From contig JAKAAL010000131.1 of assembly GCA_021802375.1 (NCBI GenBank), positions 1 to 8,820 on the forward strand: a stretch of DNA of 8,820 bases, read 5' to 3'. Positions 1-8,820 of this stretch are shown here, in pieces; the stretch's first letter is position 1; each line of letters opens with the position of its first letter. The notes beneath the pieces were generated by a model. The model was not told where the DNA came from, searched no databases, and worked only from the letters and a program-made list of their open reading frames with translations. A program made the translations under genes and the position numbers. The DNA is from Bacillota bacterium. GTDB taxonomy: Bacteria > Bacillota_E > Sulfobacillia > Sulfobacillales > Sulfobacillaceae.

Positions 1-665
1 GCGGTGAAGTGGTTCTGGCCGGGGGAAGTATCTTAGCGCGTCCGCAAAACGTACCGTTCGCCGGGCAGGTGGTCGCCCCGGGGTATTCGTATAACCAGGG
101 GCCCTATCTTGCTGAGAATGTGCCGACCTTTGGGGCCTCAGTGAGTGATTCCTCGGTGTCCAGCAACCTGGCGATTAATGGGTCGGGATTTTTTATGGTG
201 ACGAACGCTCAGGGGCAAACTCTTTACACACGAGCGGGTCAGTTTAGCCAAGACGCTCAGGGCAACTTGGTGTTGCCGGGTGGGGCAAAACTGAATTTGC
301 CAACTCCGCTCCCCGCGGATGGAGCCTATCAAATTAATTCCACCGGGCAAATCGTTTCGACCGTCGGGGGGACCTCAGTGCCTGTCGGCCAAATTCAAGT
401 GGCGACGTTTGCCAATAGCCAAGGGTTGGTCAATGTCGGCTCCAATCTCTATCAACCTAGCCTTGACTCGGGTCCAGCGGTGCTGCAAAAGCCTGGGCAA
501 AATGGTGCGGGAACGATTCAAAGTGGGGCTCTAAACGACAGCAACGTAAATCTCAACGATTCCTACGCCACCATGATTCAGGCGCAAACTATGTACCAAA
601 TGAATGCCAAAGTGATGACGGTGGCTCAAAGCTTGAATCAATCCATTGACACGATAAATGCGTGA
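1..665 (+). CDS. flgE: Flagellar hook protein (FlgE type), 5'-truncated by window edge
   Basis: Structural protein of the flagellar hook or rod, exported by the flagellar type III apparatus and assembled outside the cell. The frame is open to the left edge, so the N-terminal export and polymerisation region lies outside; the GTG at 9 is probably not the real start. Visible are the core signature LAINGSGFFMV followed by LYTRAGQF and a Gly-rich segment. The C-terminal part reads GSNLYQPSLDSG, then NGAGTIQSGALNDSNVNL, then an Ala/Gln/Met-rich helix ending SLNQSIDTINA, the conserved C-terminal helix of the FlgE/FlgF/FlgG family. Position directly before fliL-fliM-fliN matches flgE of Bacillus subtilis, whose hook protein is also short. 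FlgG is the main alternative because the domains are alike; family membership is secure, the exact paralogue less so. The gene overlaps nothing downstream if fliL starts at 686. SwrD, which follows flgE in B. subtilis, is missing. Confidence 0.85.
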   Translation, partial: GEVVLAGGSILARPQNVPFAGQVVAPGYSYNQGPYLAENVPTFGASVSDSSVSSNLAINGSGFFMVTNAQGQTLYTRAGQFSQDAQGNLVLPGGAKLNLPTPLPADGAYQINSTGQIVSTVGGTSVPVGQIQVATFANSQGLVNVGSNLYQPSLDSGPAVLQKPGQNGAGTIQSGALNDSNVNLNDSYATMIQAQTMYQMNAKVMTVAQSLNQSIDTINA

Positions 666-685
666 GGCCAAGGAGGGCCAAGCCA

Positions 686-1168
686 ATGATCAAAAGGATC
701 GGGATGTTGGTTCTAATTTTTGTAGCCGGGGTGGTGATTGGAGCCGGAGGGATTGTGAAAGGATTTCCGTCCCTATTGTCGCATAAACCCGCACCGGTTG
801 TGGAAGCGTTGGCGTGTAACGCGCTGAAAGCAGTGCCAGTTTCCTATACGGGTCTAGAATCGGATTTAGTCGGGGGGCAGAATTATCTCAGCTACAGTCT
901 GACTTTTTCCATCATGCCGCAAGCGTTGACCGCCCAAGGAGGTACGCCTTCCAGCGGTTCATCGACGACCTCGGGTACGGGCAATCCGATCTTGAATGCT
1001 AAAGTGGAAAACGCTTTGCTTAATTTAGCCCGTTCGACCAGCTACCAGGAACTGTCCGCATCGGGAGGCGAAGAAACCTTTAAGGCGCAAGTGTCGTTAG
1101 TTTTGCAATCAATTTTCGGGCCGGGCACAATTGGGGATGTATACTTCCCGACCTTTTTGACGCAATAG
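686..1168 (+). CDS. fliL: Flagellar basal body-associated protein FliL
   Basis: FliL is a single-pass inner-membrane protein that surrounds the stator units and supports torque generation. The 160-aa product has a short basic start (MIKR) and a hydrophobic segment at about residues 5-24. A periplasmic-side domain follows with the family pattern: NYLSYSLTFS, then NAKVENALLNLARSTSYQEL, a glycine-glutamate pair (GGEE), and the closing VYFPTFLTQ, where VYF near a final Gln is typical of FliL. A Gly/Ser/Thr-rich stretch (about residues 90-103) lies in the middle. An upstream in-frame GTG at 662 overlaps the flgE stop, but an AAGGAGG at 670-676 lies 9 bases before the ATG at 686, so 686 is preferred. 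Co-transcription with the flanking flagellar genes is inferred from the spacing. Confidence 0.88.
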   Translation: MIKRIGMLVLIFVAGVVIGAGGIVKGFPSLLSHKPAPVVEALACNALKAVPVSYTGLESDLVGGQNYLSYSLTFSIMPQALTAQGGTPSSGSSTTSGTGNPILNAKVENALLNLARSTSYQELSASGGEETFKAQVSLVLQSIFGPGTIGDVYFPTFLTQ

Positions 1169-1186
1169 ATTAGGGAGGCATGGGGT

Positions 1187-2113
1187 ATGGGAGGAATCGT
1201 TGCTTCGCAGATTGAAGTGAGGGCTTATGATTTTCAAAGACCGCATCAATTGTCGAGCTTACAGTTGGATGGGATCGCCTTGATGAGTGAGTCGTTTATG
1301 CGCTTAGCCTCGAATTTTTTGGCCACCTATCTTCGAACCCCGGTTTCGATGAGCCTCGTGGGCATCGACCAGGTCGTCTATGATCAGTATGTGGACCATG
1401 TGAAAAGCCCTTCGGTCTTAGTGGTGTATGGCGATGAGGGAACGGAGGTCAGCGGCAACTCGGTACTACAATTCGATATCGGCACTGCGCTGGCGATCAT
1501 TGACTGCGGGTTAGGCGGCAATGGCAGCGGAGAGTTTGGAGAACGTGAGCTCACCGAAATTGAGCAAACCATTTTTCGTCGGGTGATGGTGCAACTCTTG
1601 GACCTTTATGCCCAAACCTGGCGCAGTCTGGTCAAATTACAGCCGGTGGTGCGAGCCGTGGAGTTTAATCCGGCCTTTGCCCAGATTGCCTCTGAAGGCG
1701 ACTTGGTCGTAGTCGAACGGCAACAAATTCAAATGGTAGGCCGCAAGGACCAGTTGCTATGGGTGTGGCCATTTTCTGCCATTCAGCCGCTGGCCGTGTC
1801 GGTAACTCGCCATGGGTGGGGGCGTGGCGATGACGACGCCCAGCCGGTGCTTCGATCGGCAGAGATGCAACGCTACGTGGAGGAGGTCTCGGTCGAAGCG
1901 AGTGTCATCCTCGGACGGACTCGGCTCACTCTTAGAGAGTTTGGCGATCTAAAACTGGAGGATGTGATCGTCTTGCCTACGCGTCCCGGCCGGCCACTAC
2001 CCTTAGCCGTGGCGGGACAGGATAAACTGGAAGTGGTGCTTGGCCGCCGAGGGAGCAATCTCGCGGTGCGTGTGGTAGGCAATAGAGGAGGCAATGAGAG
2101 AGATCATGTCTAA
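1187..2113 (+). CDS. fliM: Flagellar motor switch protein FliM, lacking the N-terminal CheY-binding segment
   Basis: FliM forms the middle ring of the C-ring that sets rotation direction, contacting FliG above and FliN below. The 308-aa product opens with IEVRAYDFQRP and continues into the CheC-like middle domain: YLRTPVSMSL, VDQ-like GIDQVVYDQY, and the GGNG signature at residues 110-113 followed by RELTEIE, the FliG-contact region. A C-terminal FliM/FliN (SpoA) domain starts near residue 228 (VEEVSVEASVILGRTRLTLREFGDLKLEDVI). Start chosen: ATG at 1187, 8 bases after AGGGAGG (1172-1178). The usual N-terminal motif of type LSQxEIDxLL plus linker, about 30 residues, is missing. It cannot lie upstream because the fliL stop (TAG 1166-1168) is in the same frame. 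The last codons overlap the start of fliN. Confidence 0.93.
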   Translation: MGGIVASQIEVRAYDFQRPHQLSSLQLDGIALMSESFMRLASNFLATYLRTPVSMSLVGIDQVVYDQYVDHVKSPSVLVVYGDEGTEVSGNSVLQFDIGTALAIIDCGLGGNGSGEFGERELTEIEQTIFRRVMVQLLDLYAQTWRSLVKLQPVVRAVEFNPAFAQIASEGDLVVVERQQIQMVGRKDQLLWVWPFSAIQPLAVSVTRHGWGRGDDDAQPVLRSAEMQRYVEEVSVEASVILGRTRLTLREFGDLKLEDVIVLPTRPGRPLPLAVAGQDKLEVVLGRRGSNLAVRVVGNRGGNERDHV

Positions 2114-2534
2114 GAAAACGGCTCGTCTAACCGCAGAAGAAGTAGAGGCGTTGGTGCATGCCGGCGATCCTGGCTCGGATCCGGTCGAGATCCGCCGGTT
2201 GGAATTTGCCGAACTGACCGACGAGCCCCCAAGGGCCCCAGGCCCAGAGACGCCGGTGGCATTTTTGTGGGACATTCCGATGGCGGTGGAAGTGGTTTTG
2301 GGGACCACGGAACTGGCCGTGCGCGATGTCTTGCAGGTCCAAAGTGGGACGGTCATCGAATTGGATCGGGCCTATGGCGAATTGGTCGACGTGTATTTGA
2401 ACGGTCGCCTTGTGGCCCGCGGTGAAGTGGTTCTGGCCGGGGAGCAATTTGGAGTAAAAATTAAGGAGATTCTGGTTTCTTCGGAGGATGTGGCAGTCGA
2501 GTCCCCGTCAGCTGACTCAGTGCTTCCGGAGTAA
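2094..2534 (+). CDS. fliN: Flagellar motor switch protein FliN with a CheY-binding-like N-terminal motif
   Basis: FliN builds the lower C-ring and helps export-substrate docking and switching. The 146-aa product has a typical C-terminal SpoA domain from about residue 55 to 125: FLWDIPMAVEVVLGTTELAVRDVL, SGTVIELDR, GELVDVYLNGRLVARGEVV, FGVKIKEI. The N-terminus carries RLTAEEVEALVHAG (about residues 11-24), which resembles the LSQxEIDxLL segment by which FliM and FliY bind phosphorylated CheY. An acidic, Pro-rich linker follows. The CheC domain of FliY is absent, so this is a short FliN, not a full FliY. Start uncertain: GAGGAGG (2085-2091) is only 2 bases from ATG 2094 and 14 from the in-frame ATG 2106; the motif is retained either way. 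The last 24 codons lie antisense to the 3' end of csrA. Confidence 0.93.
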   Translation: MREIMSKKTARLTAEEVEALVHAGDPGSDPVEIRRLEFAELTDEPPRAPGPETPVAFLWDIPMAVEVVLGTTELAVRDVLQVQSGTVIELDRAYGELVDVYLNGRLVARGEVVLAGEQFGVKIKEILVSSEDVAVESPSADSVLPE

Positions 2535-2718
2535 TCACTTCCGATGCGCGCTGATTTTCCTCCTGAGAGAGATAGATTTCTTCGCGCAGGATGTCGATCG
2601 CCTTGGGAGCCTCAATGCCCAGCCGAACTTGGTCGCCTTGCACTTCTAACACGACGATGCGGATGGCGCCATCCAGGATGCGAATTGCCTCGTCAGACTT
2701 TCTGGTTAAGACCAGCAT
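2461..2718 (-). CDS. csrA: Translational regulator CsrA
   Basis: CsrA is a small dimeric RNA-binding protein that blocks ribosome binding sites containing GGA; in B. subtilis its main target is the flagellin (hag) leader. The 85-aa product begins MLVLTRKSDEAIRI and contains the hallmark GDQVRLGIEAPK (28-39) and ILREEIY (43-49), including the RNA-contacting Arg. Asn55 corresponds by position to the B. subtilis residue reported to matter for FliW binding (from memory). The normal fold ends near residue 60. The remaining roughly 24 residues (ITPEALSQL to PPKKPESP) form an unusual Pro/Lys-rich tail encoded opposite the end of fliN. AGGAGG at 2725-2730 (complement) lies 6 bases before the ATG, inside the end of fliW. 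Flagellin is not immediately downstream here, unlike in B. subtilis. Confidence 0.96.
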   Translation of the reverse strand: MLVLTRKSDEAIRILDGAIRIVVLEVQGDQVRLGIEAPKAIDILREEIYLSQEENQRASEVITPEALSQLTGTRLPHPPKKPESP

Positions 2719-3139
2719 GCGAATCCTCCTGTTGCATCAAGGGAAACTGATGCGGATATGGCACCGATAAAACGAATTGACCCCCGCGCCGGCTCACCTT
2801 GTTGATCACCAGCGGGCTGCGCAGATTGGCCGTCACCTGGCCGCCGCGGGGGTCAATCGTACACAAAGTGAGCGCCGCCCAATTCTCTTTAGACCCAAGA
2901 TCGCTCACATCGGCCTCAGGGATGGCATAGTCTGGAATCCATAGCAACGGATCCACTACCACAAAGCATATTCCAGGATTTTCGGCAGATTGTAAATAGA
3001 GAAAAGGGCTGTCAGGAGCGTGAGGTAATAAAAGAAAACGGGTCAGCCCGGAAAATCCGAGCAAAGGCGGCTGGTCAATCAACAGCAGGTCGGCGTCAGG
3101 AACCTCGATCGTTCCGTGAAACTTGGTTTGAATGTTCAT
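2693..3139 (-). CDS. fliW: Flagellar assembly factor FliW
   Basis: FliW binds either flagellin or CsrA. When flagellin has been exported, free FliW sequesters CsrA and releases flagellin translation. The 148-aa product shows the family landmarks in order: PPLLGFSGLTRFLLLP (24-39), SPFLYLQS (44-51), CFVVVDPLLWIPDY (58-71), and TANLRSPLVIN followed by GGQFVL and YPHQFPL near the C-terminus. The 3' end overlaps the csrA start by 26 bp, a coupling consistent with partner proteins made together. The ATG at 3137-3139 is preceded by GAGGAG about 12 bases upstream, a long spacing; the spacer contains the palindrome CGGTTAAACCG. The gap to flgL upstream is 20 bp. YviE (DUF6470), found between flgL and fliW in B. 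subtilis, is absent. Confidence 0.94.
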   Translation of the reverse strand: MNIQTKFHGTIEVPDADLLLIDQPPLLGFSGLTRFLLLPHAPDSPFLYLQSAENPGICFVVVDPLLWIPDYAIPEADVSDLGSKENWAALTLCTIDPRGGQVTANLRSPLVINKVSRRGGQFVLSVPYPHQFPLMQQEDSHAGLNQKV

Positions 3140-3159
3140 CGGTTTAACCGACTCCTCAT

Positions 3160-4059
3160 TTAGGGATGCAGATAGCTTAGTAGGGATAGGGGAAGGATTT
3201 GCGAGCCCGTCTGCAGTGCGGCTTGATAGGCGGTCTCGGCCTGGGCTAATTGGCTTGCGACCTGGGTCATGTTGGCACCGTCGAGACTGGTGATGCCTTG
3301 GGTGACCGTCGTTTGCAGATTAGATAAATACGTGGTCTGTTGGTTGACGCGTTGTAGGCGTCCACCCAATAGGGAATCCGCATTGGAGATATAGCTGTTG
3401 TCGGTATTGAGTTGGTTGAGTGACACGGTCCAACTGCTAGGATTTTGACCCGAGGAGACCTCGTGAGTTAGCGTTTTCAGATCGGACTCCATCTGGGTAA
3501 AAATGTTGCCCGTGGTGGGAGGCGTCGACCATAGGGAGGATTCGGTCCCGGTCAGATTAACCGTTACCTGTTCATTGGGACCGATTTGAAATACTAGCGG
3601 GGTGCCGGTGGTCGCCGAGGAAGACCCGCCGCCTGATCCCGTGGTAGAAAAATTGAACAACGGCTGACCGCTATATTGTGTACTTAACAGTTCATTGAGC
3701 GTGGTGCTAGCTTCACTCAATTGATCGGCGATAGCTTGGGTGTCGCTAGAATTAAGGGCACTGTTAGAGGCCTCGGTGGCTAGTTGGATGACGTTGGTCC
3801 ATAATTGGGAGACCTGCTGAAGGGCACTCGATCCAGCATCGATCCAGCCCTGGGCTCCGGTGGCGGCGGCTTGATAGGCTCCGATTTGACCCCCTACGGC
3901 ATTCAAATCCATGGTTCCGGCAATTGCCGACGGATTGTCCGAAGGATATTGATAGGCTTGGCCTGTCGCGGTCTCTTCTTCAAGTTTCATCATTTGCTGA
4001 GATATGGTGTTTGTGCCCTGCAAGAAGGTGTTCATCATAATGGTCGGCGTGATTTGCAC
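3160..4059 (-). CDS. flgL: Flagellar hook-associated protein FlgL (HAP3)
   Basis: FlgL forms the second ring of the hook-filament junction, between FlgK and the flagellin filament. The 299-aa product has the flagellin-like N-terminal coiled region: residues 8-32 (MMNTFLQGT to EEETATG), then QYPSDNPSAIA (38-47), matching the family pattern stGkri-psDdP. The middle is Ser/Thr/Gly-rich and variable. The C-terminal helix (DGANMTQVASQLAQAETAYQAALQ then ILPLSLLSYL) is typical of FlgL and flagellin D0/D1. The start is GTG (4057-4059), 8 bases after AGGAGG (complement of 4068-4073). The gene follows flgK after an 88-bp structured spacer. Length is close to the family norm of about 300. Confidence 0.93.
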   Translation of the reverse strand: MQITPTIMMNTFLQGTNTISQQMMKLEEETATGQAYQYPSDNPSAIAGTMDLNAVGGQIGAYQAAATGAQGWIDAGSSALQQVSQLWTNVIQLATEASNSALNSSDTQAIADQLSEASTTLNELLSTQYSGQPLFNFSTTGSGGGSSSATTGTPLVFQIGPNEQVTVNLTGTESSLWSTPPTTGNIFTQMESDLKTLTHEVSSGQNPSSWTVSLNQLNTDNSYISNADSLLGGRLQRVNQQTTYLSNLQTTVTQGITSLDGANMTQVASQLAQAETAYQAALQTGSQILPLSLLSYLHP

Positions 4060-4147
4060 GGTGGGTCCCTCCTAAGCGCTAGACTCTTTTGGCCCAATGG
4101 GCTGAGATCTCTGATGGGATATTCGCAACAGGCTGAAGTCTAAGAGC
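4060..4147 (-). other. Structured flgK-flgL intercistronic spacer
   Basis: This 88-bp gap contains several dyads: TAGACT at 4080-4085 pairs with AGTCTA at 4137-4142, enclosing GCCCA-A-TGGGC near 4092-4102 and the palindrome GAGATCTC near 4104-4111. No T-run follows on the minus strand, so a terminator is unlikely. In mRNA it could fold as a branched structure upstream of the flgL ribosome binding site. A role in processing or translation balance is inference only. Confidence 0.35.
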
Positions 4148-5518
4148 TTAACTTACGGCCTGCAGCAAGCTTTGCATGGTGGCCTGTTCGGTGCTGACTA
4201 GTTGAGCGGCAGCGCTGTAGCTCTGCTGTTCCTGGATAAGTAGGGCAGATTGTTGATCGACGTTGACTCCCACCTGGGAACTGAGGGTATTGGATAAGTC
4301 GGTTTGGGTGGTGTTGGCCGTCTGGTATTGGGTCGACGCATTTTGCCCGTCGTTGCCAACTTGGTCCACCAAGTTGGTATATTGGTCAAGCAGTGTCGAC
4401 GATCCTGATGTGGCCGATGCTGGCCCGGTGGTGAGATTCTGGTATAAAGAAAGGACCCCTTGATTGGTGGTGGCAGCGCTGCCATTATACCCGGGGTTGG
4501 CGGAAAAGGTTAAGGTGCTTGCCGCATTCGGCCCGGTCGAAGAGAACAGCCCGGGCGAACTCGAAGCTGAAGATTCAACAATGGCCTGTAAATTTTGAGC
4601 CAAACTGGTCAGTTGGTTCTGATACGATGCCAGGTTCTGGTCACGCACGTTGATGAGCCCGGCCAGGCTGCCGGAGGCAATGGTCGGCGGGGTCTCACTG
4701 GTGTCCGCCCATGTCACCTGGACCGCGGTATAGTCACCATTGGCACTAGGTTGATTCACCGTGGCGAGATTATAATTTTGCCCGTCCGTGACCAAGGGTT
4801 GCCCGCCGAGGTAGACGTTGTCGGCACCGGTGGTTCCGTTTTGGGTATAGGAAATATTGACGAGCTGACTCAACTGATTGAGCGCCTCAGTGCGTTGATC
4901 TTCGAGATCATTGGGGGATTGCCCAGCGCCGATGACCGTGGTGATCTGTCGATTCAAGTTGGCCAGTTTGGCACTGAGGCTGTTGATCTGTTCCACGGTG
5001 GATTGGACGGATTGATTAGCTTGGGTCTGCATATCACTGATTTGACTGGCCATTTGATTGAATGTCTGGGCGACGATTTTCCCCTGTTGTACTACCGCTG
5101 TCTGGTTAGCAGGACTCGAAGGATTTTGCGAGAGGGTGTTGTAGGTTGCGTAAAACGAACTTAACGTCTCCTCCAGGCCCGAACTAGAGGGTTCTTGAAA
5201 GGTGTTTTGGATTTGGCCTAATAATTGATTCTCGGATTGCCACATCCCGGTTTGACTCATCTGACCGCGCAGCGACTGGGACAGAAAGGAGTTTTGCGCT
5301 CGCTGGATCGTGCTGACCGTAGTGCCTTCACCGAGTTGACCGGCTTGGCCATTGCTGCCTAGTTCCGAGACAGGAACCGGTGGAGCTTCCGTAACAGCCG
5401 CTGTCTCGGTTTGATAACCAGGCGTGGTCGCATTGGTCAAATTGTTCCCCGTTACTTCCATCGCCAGTTGTTGCGTGGCAAGCGCTCGCCCAGCGATGTT
5501 TAACATTAGAAATGACAT
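4148..5518 (-). CDS. flgK: Flagellar hook-associated protein FlgK (HAP1)
   Basis: FlgK is the first junction protein placed on the finished hook, needed before FlgL and the filament. The 456-aa product begins with the rod/hook-type N-terminal helix and carries NNLTNATTPGYQTE (25-38), close to the NNIANANTPGYSRQ consensus. It continues with a long coiled segment (about residues 75-200), a variable Ser/Thr/Asn-rich middle, and a C-terminal helix ending LVSTEQATMQSLLQAVS. It is somewhat shorter than the enterobacterial protein (about 550), with the loss in the variable middle. ATG at 5516-5518 is preceded by AAGGAG with 8 bases spacing. FlgN, its likely export chaperone, lies directly upstream. 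A long frame on the opposite strand (about 4595-5164) is only a shadow. Confidence 0.94.
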   Translation of the reverse strand: MSFLMLNIAGRALATQQLAMEVTGNNLTNATTPGYQTETAAVTEAPPVPVSELGSNGQAGQLGEGTTVSTIQRAQNSFLSQSLRGQMSQTGMWQSENQLLGQIQNTFQEPSSSGLEETLSSFYATYNTLSQNPSSPANQTAVVQQGKIVAQTFNQMASQISDMQTQANQSVQSTVEQINSLSAKLANLNRQITTVIGAGQSPNDLEDQRTEALNQLSQLVNISYTQNGTTGADNVYLGGQPLVTDGQNYNLATVNQPSANGDYTAVQVTWADTSETPPTIASGSLAGLINVRDQNLASYQNQLTSLAQNLQAIVESSASSSPGLFSSTGPNAASTLTFSANPGYNGSAATTNQGVLSLYQNLTTGPASATSGSSTLLDQYTNLVDQVGNDGQNASTQYQTANTTQTDLSNTLSSQVGVNVDQQSALLIQEQQSYSAAAQLVSTEQATMQSLLQAVS

Positions 5519-5572
5519 CTAGAGCACTCCTTTAGTGAGAGGATCAGCGAGAACCGTAAACGACAGCATCCG

Positions 5573-5905
5573 TTAGAGATCGAGACTGAGACCCACATTT
5601 GGCAGCGACGTCCAAAGCGAGCGAATAAAATCAATATAGCCCAGGTTGCGCTGCAGCAGTTGTTGTAAGTAATCGGTTCGGACTTGCCAGGCTTCAATTT
5701 GTCGACGTAGTTGAGCGCGCTCTTCTGCGGTTAGCCGGTCTACTTCGTCGGAAAATCGATCGAGTGCATGCATGGGATCGATTTCTGATTGCAAGAGCGC
5801 CAATAGTTGATTGGGATCGCGAGCCAGCACCGCCGCAATTTTGGCGTCTGTCAGTTCCTGAAGCACTCGAATGTGCCCGCTGAGTTGCGTAAACGGCGTA
5901 TTCAC
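5573..5905 (-). CDS. flgN: FlgN-like flagellar export chaperone
   Basis: FlgN-family proteins are small helical cytoplasmic chaperones that bind the C-terminal helices of FlgK and FlgL and deliver them to the export gate. The 110-aa product is predicted to be almost wholly helical: an N-terminal LxxLxELTDAKIAAVLARDPNQL pattern, then LLQSEID, then a long charged helix LTAEERAQLRRQIEAWQ and a second helix with LQQLLQRN. The pattern of a leading Leu-rich helix, D-x-x-x-L, and a Q-x-E motif fits FlgN. The call rests on this plus the position directly upstream of flgK, the same as in B. subtilis. The start is GTG (5903-5905), 5 bases after AGGAGG. The upstream gene ends 13 bp away. Confidence 0.72.
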   Translation of the reverse strand: MNTPFTQLSGHIRVLQELTDAKIAAVLARDPNQLLALLQSEIDPMHALDRFSDEVDRLTAEERAQLRRQIEAWQVRTDYLQQLLQRNLGYIDFIRSLWTSLPNVGLSLDL

Positions 5906-5918
5906 AAGAACCTCCTGA

Positions 5919-6329
5919 TCAAGTCAACAGGTCTAACAGCAACCCTCGAATGGCGTCGAAGTGGCGAAGGATGCCTGTCCCCACATGGTCAGCCAAAAGT
6001 TCTTGCCGCAAGTTTTCCAGTTCGCGGTGGACTGCGGTGACATAAACCATGCTTTGGAACCGCCCCCGAGGAGAACGATACGTCTCTTTGCGGACCACGT
6101 AGCGAGACAGTCCCGACTGCAGCAACCTTTTGACGGTGTTTTGATAGTCGCTAAAGCGCTCTAGATTGGGGATCTCGGCCAATGCCAACTCGCTTGACGA
6201 TAAAAGATGCCAAAGGCCTTCGGTACTATCCTCCAACCGAGCAGAAGGCATCAAGGAAGATCCAGCCGAGGCCTGAGACCAAGCCAGAGCCACATCCGAG
6301 TTCAATGACAGCCTTTCGATGGCGTTCAC
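5919..6329 (-). CDS. DUF327 / YaaR-like protein
   Basis: The 136-aa product looks like a DUF327 (YaaR) protein. The recognisable part runs from about residue 55 to the end: LERFSDYQNTVKRLLQSGLSRYVVRKETYRSPRGRFQ, then VTAVHRELENLRQELL, and the ending ILRHFDAIRGLLLDLLT, where IDEIRGLLiDLl-type endings are characteristic. Function in the family is not established; its placement upstream of flgN suggests a flagellar role, by inference. The first 45 or so residues are low in recognisable features. The start is uncertain: GTG at 6327-6329 has no well-placed ribosome binding site, since GAAGG abuts it and AGGAG lies about 16 bases upstream. The gene could start further in. Confidence 0.75.
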   Translation of the reverse strand: MNAIERLSLNSDVALAWSQASAGSSLMPSARLEDSTEGLWHLLSSSELALAEIPNLERFSDYQNTVKRLLQSGLSRYVVRKETYRSPRGRFQSMVYVTAVHRELENLRQELLADHVGTGILRHFDAIRGLLLDLLT

Positions 6330-6340
6330 CTTCCATCCAA

Positions 6341-6366
6341 AACGTCTCCTACTATTGTAAGACGTT
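6341..6366 (-). promoter_or_regulatory. Dyad around a -10-like element upstream of the DUF327 gene
   Basis: A perfect 7-bp inverted repeat, AACGTCT (6341-6347) and AGACGTT (6360-6366), has a 12-base spacer. On the minus strand the spacer begins with TACAAT (6354-6359), a good -10 hexamer. A matching -35 is not evident. The arrangement would suit a repressor or activator site over an internal promoter, but it could equally be an RNA hairpin in a read-through transcript. Confidence 0.3.
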
Positions 6367-6419
6367 CTACCTAGGAAGGCCCCAAAATAAAGGCATATTA
6401 AAAGAGAAGAGGTTTTCCT

Positions 6420-6617
6420 TCAACTAACCTGAGGGTTTTCATATCGCCAATGCTTTTGAATCACGACGATATGACGATCAATGACCTGGCTGAGGGCAAG
6501 GACTTCTGGATCTAAGTTGCCTTTTTTCTCAGCCAACCGGAAGAGTTCGGATCTCAAGGTACGTACTTGAGCCATGGTCTGAACGTAGTCGCTCTGAGAA
6601 AGAGTCCCATTTTTCAC
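6420..6617 (-). CDS. Spo0E-like aspartyl-phosphate phosphatase
   Basis: Spo0E-family proteins are two-helix phosphatases that remove phosphate from response regulators such as Spo0A-P, delaying sporulation. The small product (65 aa from the chosen start) matches the pattern: helix 1 QVRTLRSELFRLAEKKGNL, a turn, then helix 2 DPEVLALSQVIDRHIVVIQK. The signature SQxxD is present (family consensus SQELD; here SQVID). Start decision: AAGGAGGT (6624-6631, complement) abuts the ATG at 6621-6623, which is too close, but lies 6 bases before the in-frame GTG at 6615-6617, which is therefore preferred. It sits between a hypothetical gene and a DUF327 gene in the late flagellar operon, which suggests coupling of motility and sporulation signals (inference). 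The true target regulator is unknown. Confidence 0.75.
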   Translation of the reverse strand: MKNGTLSQSDYVQTMAQVRTLRSELFRLAEKKGNLDPEVLALSQVIDRHIVVIQKHWRYENPQVS

Positions 6618-6684
6618 GAACATACCTCCTTGGTCTAAAGATAATCCGACGATGGTGACGGGCCTAGCCGACAGCGCTGCTGCC

Positions 6685-6912
6685 TCAGCGCCTTCCAGTC
6701 CAGCGATCCAATTGCGATTTCGCCGAATGCATTAAAAGCTCGCCCACACTGACTCCGGCTTCACGCGCGTTTCTTGCGACCTCGTCCATAAGGCCGAAGA
6801 CATCTCGGCGAGCACGTTGGTGTTCAGGATCGGCAGAGACCTGAAAAGTAAAGCCTTCACTGTCTTGTTTCACGTGTAGTTCCCATCCGTAAATCTTTGC
6901 CTTGCGGTCCAC
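6685..6912 (-). CDS. Hypothetical 75-aa protein, first gene of the late flagellar operon
   Basis: I do not recognise this family. The product is small, soluble and charged, with no signal peptide or membrane segment. The first half (about residues 7-30, YGWELHVKQDSEGFTFQVSAD) looks like beta strands; the second half is helical and amphipathic, ending basic (SQLDRWTGRR). It occupies the place where flgM or yvyF lies in B. subtilis, yet I see no FlgM-like sigma-binding helix pattern. The start is GTG at 6910-6912, 7 bases after AAGGAGGG (6920-6927, complement), which strongly supports the gene being real. The gap to the Spo0E-like gene downstream is about 67 bp. Confidence 0.65.
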   Translation of the reverse strand: MDRKAKIYGWELHVKQDSEGFTFQVSADPEHQRARRDVFGLMDEVARNAREAGVSVGELLMHSAKSQLDRWTGRR

Positions 6913-6975
6913 CTAAAAACCCTCCTTAGAACTCCTAAAAGAATGATACCCCGAAACAACTCTTCCCATAATCTT

Positions 6976-7005
6976 ATCATATTCCACGGACAAGCTCACG
7001 GTGAA
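6976..7005 (-). promoter_or_regulatory. Candidate sigma-A-type promoter for the late flagellar operon
   Basis: Reading the minus strand, TTCACC (7000-7005) and TATGAT (6976-6981) are separated by 18 bases, each reasonably close to TTGACA and TATAAT. Transcription would start near 6969, giving a leader of about 57 bases. No clear sigma-D (TAAA-N15-GCCGATAT) box was seen. Weak -35, so tentative. Confidence 0.35.
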
Positions 7006-7006
7006 C

Positions 7007-7025
7007 AATGCCGAAGCGAGGCATT
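7007..7025. repeat. Inverted repeat in the divergent control region
   Basis: AATGCC (7007-7012) and GGCATT (7020-7025) form a perfect 6-bp stem with a 7-base loop. It lies just upstream of the candidate late-operon promoter and could be an operator. It has no T-run of terminator type. Apart from this and the two promoters, nothing else is evident in 6913-7136. Confidence 0.3.
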
Positions 7026-7086
7026 TCTGGCTCGCGTTGGGCTATTGGCCAGTCACCGCCGCTAAGTAATTTGTGGTCATCACGAC

Positions 7087-7115
7087 TTGACTTTTGCGCG
7101 CTCTGACCCTAGAAT
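7087..7115 (+). promoter_or_regulatory. Sigma-A promoter of the tRNA cluster
   Basis: TTGACT (7087-7092), a 17-base spacer and TAGAAT (7110-7115) make a near-consensus housekeeping promoter. The expected start near 7122 is about 15 bases before the first tRNA, as usual for stable-RNA operons. A small GGCA-TTG-TGCC dyad (7117-7127) overlaps the start point. Confidence 0.8.
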
Positions 7116-7136
7116 AGGCATTGTGCCAATTGTCGT

Positions 7137-7213
<77 letters not shown>

Positions 7214-7217
7214 ACGA

Positions 7218-7294
7218 GGCGGCGTAGCTCAGTTGGTTAGAGCACACGGTTCATACCCGTGACGTCGGTGGTTCGAGTCCACCCGCCGCTACCA
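7218..7294 (+). tRNA. tRNA-Met (elongator, anticodon CAT)
   Basis: The acceptor GGCGGCG (7218-7224) pairs with CGCCGCT, with G-U at the first pair, followed by encoded ACCA. The anticodon stem-loop CACGG-TTCATAC-CCGTG places CAT at 7252-7254. The overall sequence closely resembles the elongator tRNA-Met of Bacillus. The tRNA-Ile2 (CAT, lysidine-modified) type normally has a different acceptor stem and is less likely. Only 4 bases separate it from the initiator gene. Confidence 0.93.
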
Positions 7295-7303
7295 CCATAG
7301 TAT

Positions 7304-7379
<76 letters not shown>

Positions 7380-7389
7380 TCGCAAACGC

Positions 7390-7418
7390 AAGCCCCGCAA
7401 TGGATGCAGGGCTTATTT
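7390..7418 (+). terminator. Probable terminator of the tRNA operon
   Basis: Arms 7390-7399 (AAGCCCCGCA) and 7405-7414 (TGCAGGGCTT) form a 10-bp stem with one C-A mismatch and a 5-base loop, 10 bases after tRNA-Lys. The T-tract is poor (TTATTT), so termination may be partial. Confidence 0.55.
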
Positions 7419-7450
7419 GATGCGCTCGGAACTCGCTCTCGAAGCCCCTC

Positions 7451-7471
7451 GGTGGCGAAGTGGTGGCGAAG
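7451..7471. repeat. Short tandem repeat between tRNA-Lys and the recombinase remnant
   Basis: GGTGGCGAAG occurs at 7451-7460 and again at 7462-7471, one base apart. It lies just beyond the 3' end of the minus-strand recombinase fragment. It could be part of an attachment-site arm region, but this is speculative. Confidence 0.4.
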
Positions 7472-7474
7472 GGC

Positions 7475-7683
7475 CTATATGTTCGTCATTTGGGGTGGCT
7501 TGTCGGGGGCCAACCACGTGCCCAGTTGATCGGCCGTCGCCCGTTGGCGCTCGACCTCAGCATGGGTGTACACCTGGAGTGTCAAGCTGATCTGCGTATG
7601 CCCGAGCCGGTCGGCGAGCGCGCGAATGTCGAGGCCCATCTCCTGGAGCCACGACGCATGGATATGGCGCAAAAACTCCAAAC
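7475..7683 (-). pseudogene. Tyrosine recombinase (integrase), C-terminal fragment A
   Basis: Only the last part of a phage-type tyrosine recombinase is present. From the LRH of box II (complement of 7664-7672) it reads LRHIHASWLQEMGLDIRALADRLGHTQISLTLQVYTHAEVERQ, with LGH and the nucleophile Tyr in QVYTH, and it ends with a stop at 7475-7477. The N-terminal DNA-binding part, the box I Arg and the His of HxxR are missing (Glu stands there, E-F-L-R). Upstream of LRH the frame runs into a palindrome and then into the antisense of fragment B, so the gene cannot be functional as seen. Its 3' end lies about 95 bp from tRNA-Lys, pointing at it, as for an integrase next to attL. Confidence 0.8.
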
Positions 7684-7704
7684 GTTTGGAGTTTTTGCGC
7701 CATA
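7663..7704. repeat. Perfect 42-bp palindrome without spacer
   Basis: Arms 7663-7683 and 7684-7704 are exact reverse complements meeting at the centre AAACGTTT. The next outward bases (7662 and 7705) do not pair. Each outer end encodes L-R-H of tyrosine recombinase box II, reading outward on its own strand, so both recombinase fragments share the same frame through the palindrome (about 13 identical residues, WRKNSKR to LRH). As RNA or single-stranded DNA it would form a very stable hairpin or cruciform. Confidence 0.97.
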
Positions 7705-7853
7705 CGTTAGCCACCACCTTACTCAACCAAGGGGCCCCCCTTGTGGCCGTCCAATCCATTCTCGGCCATGAGAAACCGGAGACGACCCAACTCTATGCCG
7801 TGTTGAGTGGCGAAGCCCGCCATCACGCCTATCAGTTGTACTTTGTGCATTAA
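7684..7853 (+). pseudogene. Tyrosine recombinase (integrase), C-terminal fragment B
   Basis: On the plus strand, from LRH at 7695-7703, the frame reads LRHTLATTLLNQGAPLVAVQSILGHEKPETTQLYAVL and ends RHHAYQLYFVH at a TAA (7851-7853). Box II LRHT, LGH and the Tyr nucleophile (TTQLYA) are clear, in the style of XerC/XerD-like integrases. It differs from fragment A in sequence, so the two are not inverted copies of one gene. Box I Arg and the HxxR His (Glu here) are missing, as in A. The frame continues upstream only as antisense of A. Confidence 0.8.
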
Positions 7854-7894
7854 CCGACGGTGACTGACGTATGGCGGAGGTTCTGTTATCATAT

Positions 7895-7919
7895 GCTCCA
7901 GAGCCAGCATCTCTGGAGC
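7895..7919. repeat. 9-bp-stem hairpin downstream of fragment B
   Basis: GCTCCAGAG (7895-7903) and CTCTGGAGC (7911-7919) form a perfect stem with a 7-base loop. No T-run follows on either strand, so a classic terminator is not supported. It lies 42 bp beyond the recombinase stop. Apart from this and a 5-bp stem at 7938-7951 (GCCGT/ACGGC), I see no gene in 7854-8033. Confidence 0.5.
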
Positions 7920-8063
7920 CTAAATGGCGGGGGATAGGCCGTCGGAACGGCGTGGGTGAGGTGCTGGTTGTGGGATTAACGGGCAGGATAGCACAATAAG
8001 CGCCCCATGCTCCTCTCCTGTCGAATGTATTAAATGAACAACAGGACTGGGGGTATTCCCGTG

Positions 8064-8820
8064 ATGACAATCGATGTCCATGGCGTATGCTTCCGACTGA
8101 GGGAGTATCAAAATTTCGAGTGGTTGCAGACGCTAGGTAAGGTGTGTTGTGTATTCGATGAACAGGATTCCGGGAATCTGTCATTTGGTACCGAAGAAGG
8201 ACGGAGCAGGCTGTTCGTTAAATACGCGGGTGCCAAGACAATAAATTATTCGGGACATCCGGAGGATGCCGTCGCGCGGTTAAAGCATGCCATCTCGGTG
8301 TATCAAGATTTAAAACATCCCAGTTTGATAAACCTGGTCAATCACTTTGACGTAGGAAACGGGTATGCTGCGGTCTTCGAATGGTTCGATGGGGAATGTC
8401 TTCATCCTCACTGGTCATTCCCACCGCCGCAAAAATATACGCATCCGGATTCTCCATACTTCCGCTTTCGGCAGTTATCCGTCGACCTGCGACTGACGTC
8501 GTTGGACGTAATTTTTCAGTTCCATGTTCGTGTTGAAGCCATGAATTACGTAGCCATTGACTTCTACGACGCGAGTGTCCTGTATGATTTCTCTACAGAC
8601 TCCACGAAGATTTGCGATATCGATTTCTACCAACAAAAGCCGGTCATCAACACCATGGGAAAACTCTGGGGTTCGTCAAGGTTCATGTCACCTGAGGAGT
8701 TTGAAATGGGGGCAGCAATTGACGAACGGACGAACGTGTTTAATATGGGGGCCACGGCTTTCGTACTACTCGGCGGAGAGTCGGACAGGTCATTACTCGA
8801 GTTTCGCACCCCCCATATCA
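8064..8820 (+). CDS. Protein-kinase-like protein, 3'-truncated by window edge
   Basis: An open frame of 252 codons runs off the right edge. It reads as a divergent Ser/Thr-type protein kinase domain: start FEWLQTLGKVCCVFDEQDSGN (18-38), a VAIK-type lysine in LFVKYAG (Lys53), KHPSLINL (84-91), a hinge-like AAVFEWFDGE (102-111). The catalytic loop reads YVAIDFYDAS (162-171) instead of HRDxKxxN: Asp166 is kept, but Lys and Asn positions are Tyr and Ser. Then CDIDFY (184-189) replaces DFG, and WGSSRFMSPEEF (202-213) is the activation/APE segment, followed by TNVFNMGATAF for helix F. I recall similar proteins in Bacillaceae (AIDFYDGS- and SSRFMSPEE-type), probably with the same unusual loop. Activity and substrate are unknown. 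Start uncertain: in-frame ATG 8034, GTG 8061 or ATG 8064; GGGGG at 8049-8053 best serves 8061/8064. Confidence 0.78.
   Translation, partial: MTIDVHGVCFRLREYQNFEWLQTLGKVCCVFDEQDSGNLSFGTEEGRSRLFVKYAGAKTINYSGHPEDAVARLKHAISVYQDLKHPSLINLVNHFDVGNGYAAVFEWFDGECLHPHWSFPPPQKYTHPDSPYFRFRQLSVDLRLTSLDVIFQFHVRVEAMNYVAIDFYDASVLYDFSTDSTKICDIDFYQQKPVINTMGKLWGSSRFMSPEEFEMGAAIDERTNVFNMGATAFVLLGGESDRSLLEFRTPHI

Follow-up and report, generated by a model that had tools for sequence, protein, structure and literature searches.

RIT (Recombinase In Trio) elements, among the mobile elements described so far, come closest to the sequence treated here. According to the available text of PMC3414803, pHG1 of Cupriavidus necator is rich in RIT elements; RITs are described there as some 3.5 kb long, with an inverted repeat of 28-9 bp that is overlapped by a palindrome, and other RITs are inserted in a transposase gene and in radC. 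The authors of PMC10214605 state, in the sections available, that to their knowledge RIT transposition has never been reproduced and that target specificity has not been formally tested; as far as the available text of both papers goes, RIT elements are known from sequence only. The same part of PMC10214605 describes a 6-bp footprint in SE and Tn554 movement. Elements of the SE/Tn554 type resemble the present case in using several recombination proteins, in their site specificity and possibly in the 6-bp junction footprint, but they encode TnpA, TnpB and TnpC or IntA, Tfp, IntB and Srap, and the sections of PMC10214605 at hand mention no symmetric 20-bp core. In the ginABCD system, likened here by its description in that text rather than by sequence, several recombinases also act jointly, but there are four genes.

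The window, i.e., the whole stretch of DNA that was analyzed, comprises 8,820 nucleotides of a contig (JAKAAL010000131.1) from a Bacillota bacterium of the Sulfobacillaceae. Inverted-repeat searching, palindrome scoring and folding all identified a perfect 42-bp palindrome at 7663-7704 (no strand assigned), with 21-nt arms (7663-7683 and 7684-7704) that are 100% identical and have no spacer. Its spacerless-palindrome score of 21 was the highest in the window, the runner-up scoring 8. By simple arithmetic with equal base use, a perfect 21-nt arm is expected by chance anywhere in 8.8 kb with a probability of about 2e-9. The DNA folds with −22.4 kcal/mol (z −7.55), and none of 200 shuffled sequences folded equally well.

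The palindrome can be parsed into TATGG, a left hexamer CGCAAA (7668-7673, TTTGCG when read outward), a 20-bp symmetric core AACTCCAAAC/GTTTGGAGTT (7674-7693), a right hexamer TTTGCG (7694-7699) and CCATA. The two hexamers are mirror images, and the left one, compared with the core-adjacent hexamers of RIT-type copies, is proposed to be a 6-bp crossover or overlap segment. The core corresponds to two inverted RIT-type arm motifs and is the same as the core adjoining RIT inverted repeats in another genome (G002:C381). The preliminary description had taken the palindrome as the first codons of both flanking integrase genes, which holds for the outer CCATA on each side, these being the box II codons common to the two genes; a resemblance to sequence of mobile elements is confined to the inner 20-32 bp.

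The flanking genes are the C-terminal parts of two distinct tyrosine integrases, in agreement with the original observation that a perfect 42-bp palindrome joins them. Fragment A (7475-7667, minus strand) starts at box II and reads toward a tRNA gene, and fragment B (7700-7853, plus strand) reads away from it. Both matched the Pfam Phage_integrase family, with E values of 2.3e-9 and 7.1e-10, respectively, and both alignments begin at model position 132 of 172, which is the R-H of box II. This bears out the claim that A and B break at the same homologous place. Equally, the reported loss of box I and of the His of HxxR was found again, since the part bearing box I is missing in both fragments and the sequence reads LEFLRH, with Glu in place of His. 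Integrases A and B are presumably both inactive.

A relative of B that is not interrupted at box II was found on another contig (L029), which contains only the last 71 codons. The box II codons are present, and neither the core nor the hexamer nor the palindrome was found at this locus, where the sequence reads CATGT-GCTTCG-CCAT; GCTTCG thus stands at the place of the right hexamer, and CATGT rather than CAYGA precedes it. Of the intact relatives that had been called for as a check, this partial one for B was obtained, and no uninterrupted A was found. Eight close B-type copies occur in genomes G001, G002 and G005 (L029-L031, L034-L037 and L043); all are open frames of 57-86 aa, one of them cut by a contig end. 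An N-terminal part occurs in G002:C345, and among the matches listed, full-length relatives are at most 45% identical.

The tRNA gene next to fragment A is a predicted tRNA-Lys(CTT) at 7304-7379 on the plus strand. Positions 19-7379 of the window share 99.93% identity (5 mismatches in 7361 positions) with a contig of a same-species metagenome-assembled genome (L001, Bacillota bacterium FK_Sedi_B_Bin.94). Because this agreement breaks off precisely where the tRNA-Lys gene has its 3' end, and with it the common chromosome, the window beyond 7379 looks like a tRNA island. More distant named relatives include Sulfobacillus. The first 24 bases of the window disagree with L001 and are an exact copy of 2419-2442 in a fliN-like gene; the contig start is chimeric, its first 18-24 bases being misplaced. 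In the same metagenome-assembled genome, A-like and B-like C-termini stand back to back at two further tRNA loci, tRNA-Arg (L030) and tRNA-Thr (L031), and spacerless-palindrome scoring revealed no clear palindrome at either join. The layout of tRNA, A-type and B-type fragments is thus recurrent, while the joins differ between loci.

A complete element with the same type of core was found at another locus (L086). It is 3.4 kb long, has terminal inverted repeats at 1849-1871 and 5271-5293 and a core at 5300-5319, and encodes on one strand three overlapping tyrosine recombinases of 350, 339 and 430 aa, all belonging to Phage_integrase. Its core differs from that of the window by one base per arm, as does that of L097. 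A core of the L086 form also occurs on a closed plasmid of Priestia megaterium, together with long inverted repeats and a recombinase trio (NZ_CP069608.1). Compared gene by gene, the L086 and Priestia trios share 61, 48 and 42% identity (an ordering of 42, 48 and 61% is also recorded), and L086 and pHG1 share 28% and 29%, plus 39% over 163 residues. L086 thus combines the approximate 3.5 kb length, the inverted repeats and the palindrome at one end with a trio orthologous to known RIT trios, and on these features we classify it as a RIT. Judged from the available text of PMC3414803 and from the sequences, the likeness to known RITs such as those on pHG1 consists in the gene-by-gene orthology of the trio, a size near 3.5 kb, the inverted repeats and the palindrome that overlaps one end. 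Before the L086 trio came to light, the core had been considered as an intron or an ordinary MITE; both were rejected once this locus revealed it.

On the Priestia plasmid the core end reads GTTGGGATAA-GTCAAC-AAATCCAAACGTTTGGATTT-GTTGAC-CCACGCC and the plain end CACGA-GTTGAC-TTATCCC. The pHG1 end can be parsed in the same way, but with another core. The core lies at the first-gene end of the trio in L086 and pHG1 and at the third-gene end on the Priestia plasmid. Judging from these arrangements, the RIT body may invert between its inverted repeats, or the core may not be tied to one particular end.

Some further RIT-like arrangements were observed. At L086 (106-6316) one RIT appears to be nested in another, since the complete element lies inside the second gene of an apparent further recombinase trio. 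The C-part of this host gene is 46% identical to pHG1 RitB, and the third gene of the host trio was judged by eye. Short RIT-derived elements of about 0.3-0.6 kb, with both ends and too small for a trio, occur at L033, L044, L046, L075, L087, L088 and L090, and perhaps moved in trans or are deletion remnants. Directly behind LRH, B-type integrases are also interrupted by a different element (X) whose ends are TATGGGATTSTTTCGGTTATG (L048, approximately 1643-1979; L035, approximately 5185-5351). It has an imperfect hairpin of its own with 16-nt arms and 3 mismatches and may represent a second RIT-like family. Its hairpin resembles by eye the spacer between the A-like and B-like fragments of L031, but L031 was rejected as a look-alike of the window as its palindrome score is at background level.

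Alignment of the element ends indicates how these elements meet their targets. By comparison, the plain end of the RIT meets the target at a hexamer, and at the other end the order is GGTTGGGATAA, hexamer, 20-bp symmetric core, hexamer and target. The L086 element splits an integrase after RIHDLR, and the gene resumes with LRHSYCVHC; its N-part matches Phage_integrase (E 1.5e-20) up to position 133. In L075 both halves of a second integrase are split at the same codon, with RFHDVR before and LRHSYAVHC after the element. Other N-parts end in HDLS (L044), HDFR (L087 and L088) and HDLR (L089). Among five N-parts of 60 residues, four had weak Phage_integrase matches (E values between 0.0014 and 0.025) that reached position 132 or 133, and that of L087 gave no match. 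C-parts starting at position 132 were found on both sides of the window palindrome, in L044 and L074, and in L087 at an E value of 0.3. The Priestia insertion lies in HELTHA codons.

The motif CAYGA stands beside the plain-end hexamer in 8 of 11 cases, or in 9 of 13 if L092 (without it) and Priestia (with it) are added. These comparisons suggest that the target is mostly CAYGA-N6-YCAY, a usual spelling of box II H-D-L-R-H in these integrases. In L086, L044 and L097 the same hexamer stands at the plain end and beyond the core; in L075 and L097 the plain-end hexamer is the inner one in reverse complement, and in L087, L046, L090 and L033 it matches neither. A 6-bp footprint is thus consistent with the hexamers of some copies and inconsistent with those of others. 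No description of box II targeting by RITs was found in the openly accessible RIT literature, as far as it was covered here, and an earlier report is possible.

The distribution of the core was examined by searches with the core alone in two sets of genomes. With up to 2 mismatches the palindrome centre was found in 11 of 151 related genomes (control hits in 3 of 151), of which 9 had an exactly symmetric core; in a set of 398 genomes sampled from the phylum, 2 had an exact match. An inverted repeat, GGATTTTATTTAGGTTKGGATAA, often adjoins the core; a search allowing up to 3 mismatches detected it in 9 of the 151 genomes with 0 control hits, and it does not occur in the window. A sample of 21 distinct places with a symmetric core, the window included and not free of bias, was assembled from loci fetched by a match to the window, the terminal inverted repeat, the core or a RIT protein. 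An asymmetric core (L096) and three places with 2 mismatches (G045:C81, G018:C155 and G033:C25) were left out before counting. In this sample the RIT inverted repeat (at least 8 of 11 bases) lies on one side of the core in 14 places. On the side without the repeat, an integrase C-part starting from box II was recognized in 11 of 21 places by a strict R-H...G-H motif and in 12 by a relaxed one, as against null rates per side of 79 and 226 in 200,000. The nine places that fail the relaxed test comprise two genes of the PD-(D/E)XK nuclease family (G006), the HELTHA-coding gene of Priestia, five degenerate or short flanks (L033, L042, L090, L091 and L101, three of which carry R-H or a near form) and a viral contig (L100) where the core lacks any RIT feature.

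The check for other copies of the 21-bp arm, suggested at the outset, gave 4 places in 3 of 7 genomes at up to 3 mismatches, of which only G002:C381 recurred in the palindrome search, and no exact copy in viral contigs. With the whole window as megablast query against plasmids, the best 20 of 102 matches all fell in tRNA genes, and a blastn search of 7400-8820 against phages gave no match. Three adjacent overlapping tyrosine-recombinase genes were not present among the window's ORFs of at least 50 aa (six proteins were domain-scanned). The terminal inverted repeat pattern had 0 matches in the window at up to 3 mismatches, and none beside the core. The same-species genome G001 gave no terminal inverted repeat or core at the mismatch limits used. 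Of the RIT traits, a palindromic sequence at one end is thus represented in the window by its core, which is the one found in G002:C381; the genes and repeats of a RIT are missing, so that by this comparison the locus is classed as a RIT-type scar and not as a RIT element. A further difference from described RITs concerns box II as the preferred target and the order hexamer-core-hexamer, both deduced here from comparison.

A layout like that of the window was found in another genome (L094), where a solo core stands between two different RitB-like C-parts arranged back to back. Both align from residue 257 of pHG1 RitB (E 1e-17 and 1e-18; blastp against a 12-protein set). One side has R-H and the other S-H, and the two hexamers differ. 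A core with a RitB-like C-part on one side has a DruA match on the other in L093. Pfam Phage_integrase gave no hit on either side of L094 or with the C-parts of L075, L086 and L093, all of which were assigned by blastp to RIT proteins. On these alignments L094 is an independent look-alike of the window layout.

Taken together, comparison indicates that the core belongs to RIT ends, that RITs of this family often lie in box II, and that solo cores between two C-parts occur. The palindrome of the window is very probably a RIT-type core situated in box II. As the best overall explanation, with a probability of about 0.78, we propose that the junction arose when a RIT-type symmetric core was left as a scar between two integrase genes. 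The starting arrangement would have been integrase A reading toward tRNA-Lys and integrase B pointing the opposite way, with a RIT-type element residing in box II of one of them. The inner hexamer of this element, flanked by GGTTGGGATAA and AAATCCAAAC, would form a complete crossover site. The RIT recombinases would then have joined that inner hexamer site with box II of the second integrase. The deletion would have removed the element, the N-terminal half of each integrase and all intervening DNA, leaving the C-part of A, hexamer, core, hexamer and the C-part of B. We consider the odds about even that such a single-step deletion was the exact route. Several observations count against the scar explanation: no RIT inverted repeat and no trio are left in the window, 9 of 21 cores fail the relaxed integrase test, and at the tRNA locus L030 an A-like and a B-like C-part meet without a palindrome. 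Furthermore, the end carrying the core differs among trios, L029 has CATGT, the plain end of L092 lacks CAYGA, and the hexamers disagree in several copies and in L094. On the same side stand the C-parts without a Pfam hit, the RITs described in a transposase gene and in radC, and the negative outcome in G001.

The same A'-core-B' product would result if two RIT-type elements, one in each integrase gene, had recombined through their identical symmetric cores, either by homologous recombination or by the action of the trio, to leave a single core. Two points favor this route: the symmetry of the core makes any inverted pair of copies a direct repeat as well, and an integrase C-part adjoins the core in L086, L075, L044 and L087. 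We nevertheless consider it unlikely, as it requires two insertions of one subfamily, and 20 bp is short for homologous recombination.

The preliminary description had listed template switching, palindromic insertion, recombinase-mediated rearrangement and an artefact as possible origins. The comparisons favor the third, with a RIT-type agent, and disfavor the artefact and template switching. An assembly or library chimera, in which a fold-back joined two unrelated integrase contigs, gains some credit from the misplaced copy of 2419-2442 in the first 18-24 bases of the window, which means that at least one contig end is wrong. An artefact would not, however, produce a core identical to that beside the RIT repeats of G002:C381 or place it at box II on both sides. 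It is made improbable by the look-alike L094, in another genome (also an assembly), and by complete elements that carry the core, one of them located on a closed plasmid. We judge a chimera highly improbable; the odd junction is probably a natural scar and not an assembly error.

Snap-back copying can generate palindromes, and the box II codons CCATA shared by A and B might have allowed inverted LRH-coding sequences to give rise to the palindrome by template switching during replication or by snap-back synthesis, with integrase DNA alone as the source. An uninterrupted A would then be predicted to carry GTTTGGAGTTTTTG upstream of box II. The uninterrupted relative of B, L029, lacks the central 20 bp and the hexamer, and in other genomes and on the Priestia plasmid the core adjoins RIT repeats. 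Because these 20 bp are missing from L029 and present in RIT elements, template switching at LRH is unnecessary as an explanation, and we give it very little credence. Least probable of all is a free-standing micro-element or regulatory hairpin, such as a bidirectional terminator, lying in box II by chance: the stem is flanked by an A-run and a T-run and the strand folds strongly, but a RIT inverted repeat is attached at a fixed 6-bp spacing in 14 of 21 copies.

The RIT-scar explanation names arm-hexamer-arm as the candidate for the crossover site, CAYGA-N6-YCAY (in many cases box II of a recombinase) as the target rule and the solo core as the by-product to be expected, which together make the mechanism directly testable. 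Annotators also gain a means of recognizing pairs of integrases that are both broken at box II. More tentatively, and in our view less likely than not, this RIT branch may have become a parasite of competing mobile elements by evolving to land mainly in recombinase box II codons, those of other RITs among them. Through its symmetric core, a RIT residing in one integrase could then excise everything up to box II of another, killing two integrases and freezing the island at a tRNA hotspot.

Downstream of fragment B, a site search located a cassette-boundary-like site TTAACGGGCAGG at 7976-7987 on the plus strand, belonging to the repeated site TTAACGGGCAGR. Its copies number 17 in G001 and 50 in G002, two genomes without control hits, and 0-4 in five other genomes with 0-2 control hits. 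B-type integrase fragments lie directly upstream of such a site at several loci. Six copies occur in one orientation in L031 (10704-19575, minus strand), 0.8-3 kb apart with genes in between, which resembles an integron-like cassette array; copies were also noted with L032. In the window, a kinase-like ORF (8034-8819; Pfam Pkinase, E 2e-5, below the curated cut-off) starts past the 7976 site, and the segment 7975-8795 has a 92% match in G002:C348 that begins at a one-mismatch copy of this site.
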